Origin: an uncultured Bacteroidota bacterium
GTDB lineage: Bacteria; Bacteroidota; Bacteroidia; AKYH767-A; OLB10
Direction: 5' to 3'
NCBI GenBank assembly: GCA_900696575.1
Contig: CAADHD010000032.1
Coordinates: 26,038 to 90,037 of the forward strand
DNA length: 64,000 nucleotides
Shown: in pieces, positions 18,339 to 24,845 of the stretch
Layout: every line of letters begins with the position of its first letter
How positions within the stretch are numbered: position 1 is the first letter of the stretch
Made by a program: the position numbers and the translations under genes
The notes under the pieces: model-generated
What the model was told of the DNA's origin: nothing
The model's input: the letters and a program-made list of their open reading frames with translations, nothing else
Databases searched by the model: none

Positions 18339-19064
18339 ATGGTAGCTCGCAAGCATTTCAGAACGGCAATAACGTCTGCAGAGCTGGCTGCTAACAGCGG
18401 GCTGCTTCAGTACCTTCAAACCTTTTTAACCGACAACAAGAAAGAACTTTTTGAAAAGGCACTTTCATTGCGTACCCGTTTTCTTGCCTGTGTTATGGAA
18501 AATGTAATTGATGAACATAATACCAATGCCGTTATCCGCTCCTGCGAGTGCACCGGTGTGCAGGATGTGTATATCATCAGCGGTGGTAAAGGATTCAAAC
18601 CTGCAAAAGGGGTGATGCGCGGCTCAGGCAAATGGTCAACGCTGATTCGTTACAACGAAGCTGCCGGACTTTCGGCAGAACAATGCATGAATGACTTGAA
18701 GAATAAAGGCTACCGTATTGTAGTTACCTCTCCTCATGGCGAAGCCACCCCGTTAAGCATGTTGGAGGTAAGCAAACCGCTCGCTGTTTGTTTTGGCCAT
18801 GAGCAAACCGGAATTTCACAAATTCTGAAAGATCATGCCGATGAATTGGTAAAAATTCCCATGGCAGGATTTACAGAAAGTTTCAATGTTTCAGTTGCTG
18901 CAGGTATCATCTTGTATGACCTTACCAGAAGAATCCGAAACAGTAATGTAAACTGGAATTTATCAGAACCGGAAAAGCAACAACTGCGTTTTGAGTGGAC
19001 ATGGAAATGCCTCAACCGTCCCGACTTACTTACTGAGGAGTATTTTAGAAAGCAGGAGAAATAA
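18339..19064 (+). CDS. trmH: tRNA (guanosine-2'-O-)-methyltransferase, TrmH/SpoU family
   Basis: RFLACVMENVIDEHNTNAVIRSCECTGVQDVYII...LAVCFGHEQTGIS...AGFTESFNVSVAAGIILYDL. Confidence 0.92.
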   Translation: MVARKHFRTAITSAELAANSGLLQYLQTFLTDNKKELFEKALSLRTRFLACVMENVIDEHNTNAVIRSCECTGVQDVYIISGGKGFKPAKGVMRGSGKWSTLIRYNEAAGLSAEQCMNDLKNKGYRIVVTSPHGEATPLSMLEVSKPLAVCFGHEQTGISQILKDHADELVKIPMAGFTESFNVSVAAGIILYDLTRRIRNSNVNWNLSEPEKQQLRFEWTWKCLNRPDLLTEEYFRKQEK

Positions 19065-19086: not shown

Positions 19087-19109
19087 CTGGCGTGCGTTTA
19101 TAACGCGTG
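19087..19109 (+). repeat. isolated REP-like hairpin (CTGGCGTGCGTTTATAACGCGTG)
   Basis: 20/23 or better identity to the RAYT-flanking repeat at 22524; same 23-nt layout. Confidence 0.75.
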
Positions 19110-19129
19110 CATGTACACTGCCCACGACA

Positions 19130-19177
19130 GGGCGTCCCCGCCCATCTTCAATTGTCCATGATAGGGCGTCCTCGCCC
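19130..19177. repeat. two copies of a GGGCGTCC(C/T)CGCCC palindromic repeat
   Basis: GGGCGTCCCCGCCC at 19130..19143 and GGGCGTCCTCGCCC at 19164..19177; each can form a 5-bp GGGCG/CGCCC hairpin and is followed by ATC. Confidence 0.75.
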
Positions 19178-19306
19178 ATCATCAAAATTTAATGACAATC
19201 ATTTGTTATGCTTGCCTCTCACTATCGCGCGTTCATAACGCTTGCCTTGACTTATAACACGTGCCTTGACCTTAATTTAGCTTCCCTTGCCTAAATTCCA
19301 TCCGCT

Positions 19307-22523: not shown

Positions 22524-22612
22524 CTGGCGCGCGTTTGTAACGCGTGATATTCCTAACTGGCGCGCGTTTGTAACGCGTGATATTCCTAACTGGCGCGCGT
22601 TTGTAACGCGTG
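22524..22612 (+). repeat. three direct copies of REP-like hairpin, 33-nt period
   Basis: CTGGCGCGCGTTTGTAACGCGTG at 22524, 22557 and 22590 (identical), linked by ATATTCCTAA; 8-bp stem (one G-T) with TGT loop. Confidence 0.95.
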
Positions 22613-22677
22613 CCCTCAATTTAACGCGTGCCCTGCACTCTCATCTGTTGCATATTTTTATAATGCGTGCTAAAAAA

Positions 22678-23223
22678 TCATTCTATTTTCTTTATTGCCA
22701 ACAAGCCCTTTCCACCCGAATAATCTATTGCCGAACTGTAAACATAATCTTCCGGCTTGGCAACCCATCCTTGTTTTACAGGATTATTGTGCAAGTATTC
22801 TAACCGTGTATCTAACATATTATTAGTATCAAGTTGAACCGGATGATTTCCATCCTGCCATACCTTGTAAAATTTGTTTCTTTTTATCTCTGAAGCCGAT
22901 GCAATGAAATGTTTTAAAATCCATTCTTTTCTGCTGTCATTCCCATGGATAAGCTGTTGTACAATTTCTTTGCTTGTGAATTTTTTAAAATCACGCATAA
23001 TATCATTTAGCGGGATCAAGTTGCTGCTGATAATTAAATGCAAATGATTTGACATAATGACCCATGCATGAATAACCAAGCCTTTTTGAATCTGACAATA
23101 CTTCAATGAGTCAAGTACGATTTCAGCATACTGCTTTTTAGAGAATAGATCTATCCATCCTGTAATGGTTGGAGTAACGAAATAGATTCCAGATAAGTCA
23201 CGGAATTTATATTTCTCTGACAT
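22678..23223 (-). CDS. REP-associated tyrosine transposase (RAYT, Y1_Tnp family)
   Basis: MSEKYKFRDLSGIYFVTPTITGWIDLFSK...HAWVIMSNHLHLIIS...FYKVWQDGNHPVQL...RLEYLHNNPVKQGWVAKPEDYVYSSA: HLH metal motif and Y(L/I)HxNPV/YSSA motifs. ORF start at 23358 rejected because it translates the repeats. Confidence 0.93.
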   Translation of the reverse strand: MSEKYKFRDLSGIYFVTPTITGWIDLFSKKQYAEIVLDSLKYCQIQKGLVIHAWVIMSNHLHLIISSNLIPLNDIMRDFKKFTSKEIVQQLIHGNDSRKEWILKHFIASASEIKRNKFYKVWQDGNHPVQLDTNNMLDTRLEYLHNNPVKQGWVAKPEDYVYSSAIDYSGGKGLLAIKKIE

Positions 23224-23267
23224 AGCAAGTTTTAAAATGAGAGTTGTAAATATAATAAGGTAATTGG

Positions 23268-23378
23268 CACGCGTTACAAAGGCGCGCCAGTGAGATGAGT
23301 GATTGGCACGCGTTACAAACGCGCGCCAGTGAGATAAATATAATAAGGTGATTGGCACGCGTTACAAAGGCGCGCCAG
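23268..23378 (-). repeat. three copies of the same REP-like hairpin in opposite orientation
   Basis: CACGCGTTACAAA(G/C)GCGCGCCAG at 23268..23290, 23307..23329, 23356..23378 = reverse complement of the left-side repeat, with one variable base. Confidence 0.95.
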
Positions 23379-24822: not shown

Positions 24823-24845
24823 CACGCGTTACCAACGCTCGCCAG
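24823..24845 (-). repeat. isolated REP-like hairpin (CACGCGTTACCAACGCTCGCCAG)
   Basis: Same 23-nt layout and orientation as the 23268..23378 cluster with two changes; lies between ccmB and ccmC. Confidence 0.75.

Follow-up and report, generated by a model that had tools for sequence, protein, structure and literature searches.

What is formed when a transposase gene sits between inverted sets of one short hairpin, and can such a unit move? REP-associated tyrosine transposases (RAYTs, also called TnpA_REP) are generally portrayed as transposases that were domesticated and no longer move, and the way in which repetitive extragenic palindromes (REPs) spread is a standing question. A locus in an uncultured Bacteroidota bacterium raises both questions: Within the window (the whole stretch of DNA analysed, 64,000 nucleotides of contig CAADHD010000032.1), a RAYT gene is bracketed by inverted copies of a hairpin, the arrangement known as a REPtron. 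We are confident, short of certainty, that this locus belongs to the REPtrons of RAYT group 5 (TnpA_REP subclass 2.6), and units of the same class in other genomes occur as whole duplicates, which points to mobility.

The RAYT gene and its inverted hairpins

The elements of the locus, followed by three outlying REP copies in the window, are as follows.

22524..22546, plus strand: REP unit copy 1, on the 3' side of the RAYT gene
22557..22579, plus strand: REP unit copy 2, 3' side, in 33-nt tandem period with copy 1
22590..22614, plus strand: REP unit copy 3, 3' side, with the full 10-bp stem including CC
22620..22637, plus strand: 3'-half REP remnant (TTTAACGCGTGCCC)
22678..23223, minus strand: RAYT gene (TnpA_REP), 181 aa; profile match, invariant catalytic residues, structural match
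22795-22797, minus strand: catalytic tyrosine Y143 of the RAYT
23038-23040, minus strand: HUH histidine H62
23044-23046, minus strand: HUH histidine H60
23266..23290, minus strand: REP unit, 5' side, closest to the RAYT gene (core at 23268); one stem mismatch
23305..23329, minus strand: REP unit, 5' side, middle (23307); core identical to the 3'-side core
23354..23378, minus strand: REP unit, 5' side, outer copy (core at 23356); one stem mismatch
19087..19109, plus strand: solo REP, 2 mismatches, between a gene ending at 19064 and an ABC-F gene
19222..19246, plus strand: degenerate REP copy (E 0.016, covariance model)
24823..24845, minus strand: solo REP, 2 mismatches, just past the stop of a ccmB-like gene

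The encoded protein scores 101.8 bits against NCBIfam NF047646 (REP_Tyr_transpos, REP-associated tyrosine transposase; cut-off 80) and 22.2 bits against the IS200 profile, under the cut-off of 55; its sequence does not hold the Y-xxx-Q motif of IS200/IS605 transposases. The best match in the PDB to its predicted model (pLDDT 94.3) is 4er8, the E. coli RAYT structure, in which residue 115 aligns with Y143. Across 58 sequences of relatives, H60, H62, Y143, N147 and P148 are invariant, and the reading frame is open and keeps all the invariant catalytic residues. An HUH motif together with a single catalytic tyrosine of the Y-xx-NP type is characteristic of RAYT/TnpA_REP (class 2) proteins, and both are present here. 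Translation most likely starts at the ATG at 23223, since relatives' proteins align from this methionine; the GTG start of the open reading frame at 23358 was rejected because that frame runs through the hairpins and finds no support among relatives.

The RAYT gene lies between inverted REP hairpins, as in other RAYT/TnpA_REP (class 2) systems, such that the REPtron architecture and the RAYT identity put forward in an initial annotation of this DNA are both upheld. The six hairpin units that it listed are present, against an expectation of zero matches from 100 shuffles of the window. Its claim that the units are identical holds for those at 22524, 22557, 22590 and 23307; those at 23268 and 23356 each have C in place of the same G, with the loss of one stem pair, and the 51-nt surroundings of the outer copy are a 98% repeat of those of the innermost. 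The stem, which had been given as 8 bp, extends over 10 bp in the majority of copies (GGCGCGCGTT/AACGCGTGCC) because the GG of CTGG pairs with CC, which among the cassette units is lacking only at 22524 and 22557. With three overlooked copies added (19087, plus; 19222, plus and degenerate; 24823, minus), every REP copy in the window to the left of the gene is on the plus strand and every copy to its right on the minus strand. The strand of foot plus hairpin at this locus reads CTCACT-GGCGCGCGTTTGTAACGCGTGCC.

Subclass 2.6, equivalent to RAYT group 5, is described in PMC6006769 as occurring in Bacteroidetes, with 'atypical' flanking structures that lack GT[AG]G and have copies elsewhere in the genome, and with the motifs NH[LIV]H, WQ and YIH[QN]NP at an HUH-to-tyrosine spacing of about 82. 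Judged by that description, the present protein belongs here: It has NHLH, WQ and YLHNNP (i.e., Y-x-H-N-N-P), 81 residues from H62 to Y143, and the downstream SS motif, and the host is likewise a member of the Bacteroidetes with atypical hairpins copied in its genome. Because these motifs and this spacing fit, the proposal of a Bacteroidota REP/RAYT system was right about a kind that had already been described, and the locus is a further example of a known, if little-studied, class. The common hairpin rule and the whole-unit duplicates reported below appear to go beyond that description.

A hairpin design shared among relatives

Hairpins were sought around the RAYT genes of 80 fetched relatives, the present locus, and loci L019/L020, and were read inwards, in the direction of the gene, from either side. 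A hairpin lies within 250 nt upstream of the gene in 66 of 81 cases (81%) and within 250 nt downstream in 60 of 79 (76%), as against 62 of 808 (7.7%) farther away and 10 of 480 (2.1%) in shuffles. The modal hairpin has a 10-bp stem, a 3-nt loop of TGC or TGT, and purine-C-T directly 5' of the stem. Among 73 loci, from which near-duplicates had been removed and which still include related loci, the loop begins with T in 62 cases against 11 of the opposite polarity (p 9e-10), the foot is CT in 55 against 13 with a mirrored AG (p 3e-7), and a G.T wobble has its G on the 5' arm in 57 against 9 (p 1e-9). The hairpin finder gives neither strand an advantage in its scoring and so cannot itself have produced these asymmetries.

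In the relatives' profile the wobble falls mostly at pair 7 counted from the loop, and in the present genome it is kept in all 17 copies of the hairpin. Owing to this wobble the two strands fold unequally (-12.5 against -10.4 kcal/mol), which may give the enzyme a means to tell the REP from its complement. Among the 17 copies, no pair was changed on both sides, and there was no excess of covariation over shuffles; since this comparison within the genome is uninformative, the structural case rests on the comparison across genomes. No conserved 3' cleavage motif is visible downstream of the hairpin in the relatives' profile. Taken across these alignments, subclass 2.6 has a hairpin signature of its own, a purine-C-T foot, a 10-bp stem marked by G.T, and a T-first loop, in place of GTAG.

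This signature differs from the one first suggested, in which the tetranucleotide CTGG, unpaired and 5' of a hairpin with an 8-bp stem, would serve as guide and directly take the place of GTAG. CTGG is indeed nearly invariant in this genome, and its CT part, just before the stem, is conserved in relatives, where it extends 5' to purine-C-T. The GG part fares otherwise: It can pair with CC in 15 of 17 copies at each of the two positions, and the dinucleotide that follows CT is free to differ among relatives (AG, CG, GA, CT and others) over a stem that stays at 10 bp. Because the first two stem bases vary in this way, the tetranucleotide reading fails as worded, and we hold it to be improbable. 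The canonical GT[AG]G foot is found neither in the 17-copy alignment, most copies of which have ACT or GCT, nor as a consensus in the relatives' profile.

The tip of the hairpin goes with the gene. In 34 of 52 loci the hairpins on the two sides have the same tip dinucleotide, where 15.2 such loci would be expected, and on a quick RAYT tree the tip class changes 25 times, compared with 36 in 300 shuffles, none of which fell below 32. The comparison shows that the tip tracks the apparent RAYT phylogeny, which is linkage and not specificity, because a gene and hairpin inherited together would be enough to produce it.

Two variants of the ends were also seen. Six loci (L046, L053, L075, L076, L084, L089) have a second, shorter hairpin of 7-9 bp about 10 nt inside the main REP, its tip usually similar, so that the end is a double hairpin; in L073/L082 (genome G031) and L042/L074, the outer end hairpin has a small inner hairpin (about CCGgctctgCGG) where its loop would be, making a three-part REP variant.

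Among known systems, the group 3 REPtrons of Stenotrophomonas maltophilia share the short near-perfect palindrome and 3-nt loop, and differ in their GTAG foot, 8-bp stem, RAYT subclass (2.5) and proteobacterial host; in these REPtrons the bases of the loop are crucial, and cleavage takes place at CT dinucleotides (PMC8266576). The E. coli REPtron (group 2; 4er8) has the same fold, aligned catalytic tyrosine, imperfect hairpins and bracketed gene, whereas GTAG is essential there, and its stretch after WQ, with the residues that contact GTAG, gives way here to a WQxxNHPxEL pattern. IS200/IS605 elements (IS608, ISDra2) share the HUH/Y1 fold, the hairpin ends and the lack of a visible target duplication; unlike them, the present system has Y-x-H-N-N-P instead of Y-xxx-Q, hairpins inverted at its two ends, and dispersed solo copies.

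Dispersal and whole-unit copies

If the hairpin occurred at this locus only, its link to the RAYT would fail. A genome-wide pattern search allowing 3 mismatches found 17 copies of the 23-mer, and none with the reversed pattern as control. A covariance model built from these copies gave 28 matches at E below 0.02; its E-values are rough, and since the 17 copies that it was trained on are bound to match, 11 of the matches are new. Start-codon artefacts discounted, all 17 copies are intergenic, many of them 5-50 nt past stop codons, and several cores are identical, one of these on another contig. The same hairpin is thus dispersed in intergenic regions, as in other RAYT/TnpA_REP systems, at a modest copy number, in a genome (2.87 Mb, 35 contigs) that holds one RAYT gene.

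Across the taxonomic family, 3 of 24 genomes, this one included, have a RAYT homologue. The 23-mer was not found in the 23 others, 21 of which are without a RAYT, so it is not a repeat equally common in relatives that lack the gene; the other two carriers have differing hairpins of similar design beside their RAYT genes. A congener with neither RAYT nor 23-mer (G001) has a shorter ccmB-ccmC spacer from which the hairpin is missing. The RAYT locus itself was rejected as a clean empty site in G001, since its flanks there are rearranged and on different contigs.

Other repeats adjoin some REP copies. A 33-nt repeat containing a GGGCG-TCCY-CGCCC hairpin is present twice at 19119-19185; when 3 mismatches are allowed, the genome has 8 copies of this repeat (control 0). 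It lies in three places about 100 nt or less from a REP copy, and is possibly a second repeat family without a gene of its own. A 26-nt tandem repeat (GTGAAAAAACACCAACCAGAGGCAAA) stands between two REP copies at locus L009 (1394-1523; G000:C16 near 97700), with a related stretch beside a REP at L008. A longer dispersed repeat (CCGCGAAGCGG... / CGAAGGGGTGAAATAAA) adjoins several weak REP copies (L011, L122, L124-L129, L133), in some cases near contig ends.

RAYT homologues are present in 114 of 295 genomes of the class, and in four other genomes than the present one the unit is duplicated as a whole. G030 has a 659-bp unit twice, at 90% identity, bounded by CCCCAACT-hairpin and hairpin-AGTTGGGG, along with shorter gene-less elements bearing both ends and solo hairpins. 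In G031 a 767-bp unit is present three times (90-94%), accompanied by one derivative with a deletion and by roughly twelve solo ends; G133 and G243 repeat the pattern of hairpin, RAYT and hairpin. In all four the copies have sharp ends, marked by a C-run, and unrelated flanks, in two there are internally deleted derivatives, and no target-site duplication is evident by eye. Such duplicates are genomic evidence for the mobility of subclass 2.6 / group 5, for which, according to the literature (Quentin et al. 2018, PMC6006769), there had been none. Separately, RAYT genes or parts of them occur head-to-tail in tandem at 99% identity in L197 (G104) and L216 (G212).

Proposed movement of the unit and rival readings

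In the mechanism that we propose, the RAYT, an HUH/Y1 single-strand DNA endonuclease, would bind one strand of the REP hairpin in single-stranded DNA, e.g., during replication, recognizing the [A/G]CT foot, the 10-bp stem marked by its G.T wobble, and the tip with its T-first loop. It would cut near the hairpin foot via Y143 and rejoin the strand elsewhere, such that REPs would spread alone, in inverted pairs, or as a pair that encloses the gene. Enzymes of groups 2 and 3 act on a single strand of the hairpin, and both its loop and its foot are important to them (PMC8266576); by analogy, it is probable that the RAYT here binds the REP strand in folded form and cuts it close to the foot. We infer these two steps, and likewise strand transfer and any activity of the RAYT in this organism today.

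The broadest reading is that subclass 2.6 REPtrons are autonomous single-strand transposons of the Bacteroidota, still moving whole and shedding REP pairs and solos, with a purine-C-T/G.T/T-first code replacing GTAG and a tip that co-evolves with the RAYT. We give it an even chance. Several facts weigh against our main account of the locus. About 28 copies in this genome are modest when REPs usually exceed 100 per genome, as PMC2817692 reports, and two of the six cassette units carry a stem-breaking mismatch. Because the genome has a single RAYT and no duplicated unit, recent activity in this organism is unproven; because the empty sites in G001 are only about 71% identical in DNA, insertion points can be placed only approximately. 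The duplicates in G030 and G031 come from metagenome assemblies, in which chimeric contigs are possible, although unit ends that are consistent in four genomes speak against such chimeras; for G133 and G243 no origin is stated.

Some of these same facts would suit a decaying relic, formerly mobile and now inactive, that has left repeats and local tandem duplication only. The single RAYT, low copy number and several degenerate copies agree with such a history, and the 33-nt tandem repeats could be explained by slippage; yet the open, catalytically intact frame and the several identical cores, including the one on another contig, speak against it, and we regard it as doubtful, if the strongest of the rivals. 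If the hairpins acted as duplex DNA, in the manner of the usual terminal inverted repeats of an IS-like unit, as in the TIRtrons described in PMC3733652, this would account for units that duplicate whole with inverted ends. Each end, however, is itself a hairpin whose G.T wobble and loop polarity are specific to one strand, there are dispersed solo hairpins, and the enzyme family acts on single strands, which makes folded single-strand signals the better account and terminal repeats an unlikely one. Least probable, and by our estimate very unlikely, is that the hairpins are transcription terminators or mRNA-stabilizing elements to which the RAYT gene is incidental: Their frequent position just past stop codons and a T run after one copy (L001) fit this idea, but that run is found in 1 of 17 copies, the cassette has no terminator-like site and no Rfam match, and neither mirror-symmetric placement nor association of tip and RAYT is expected of terminators. 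As a sole explanation it competes with the REPtron reading, but REPs can also serve their hosts, and the two are compatible to that extent.

The near-identical whole units that lie beside internally deleted derivatives are natural material for testing the origin of REPs from REPtrons, and the common rule of foot, wobble and loop polarity makes recognition by this class directly testable with oligonucleotides.
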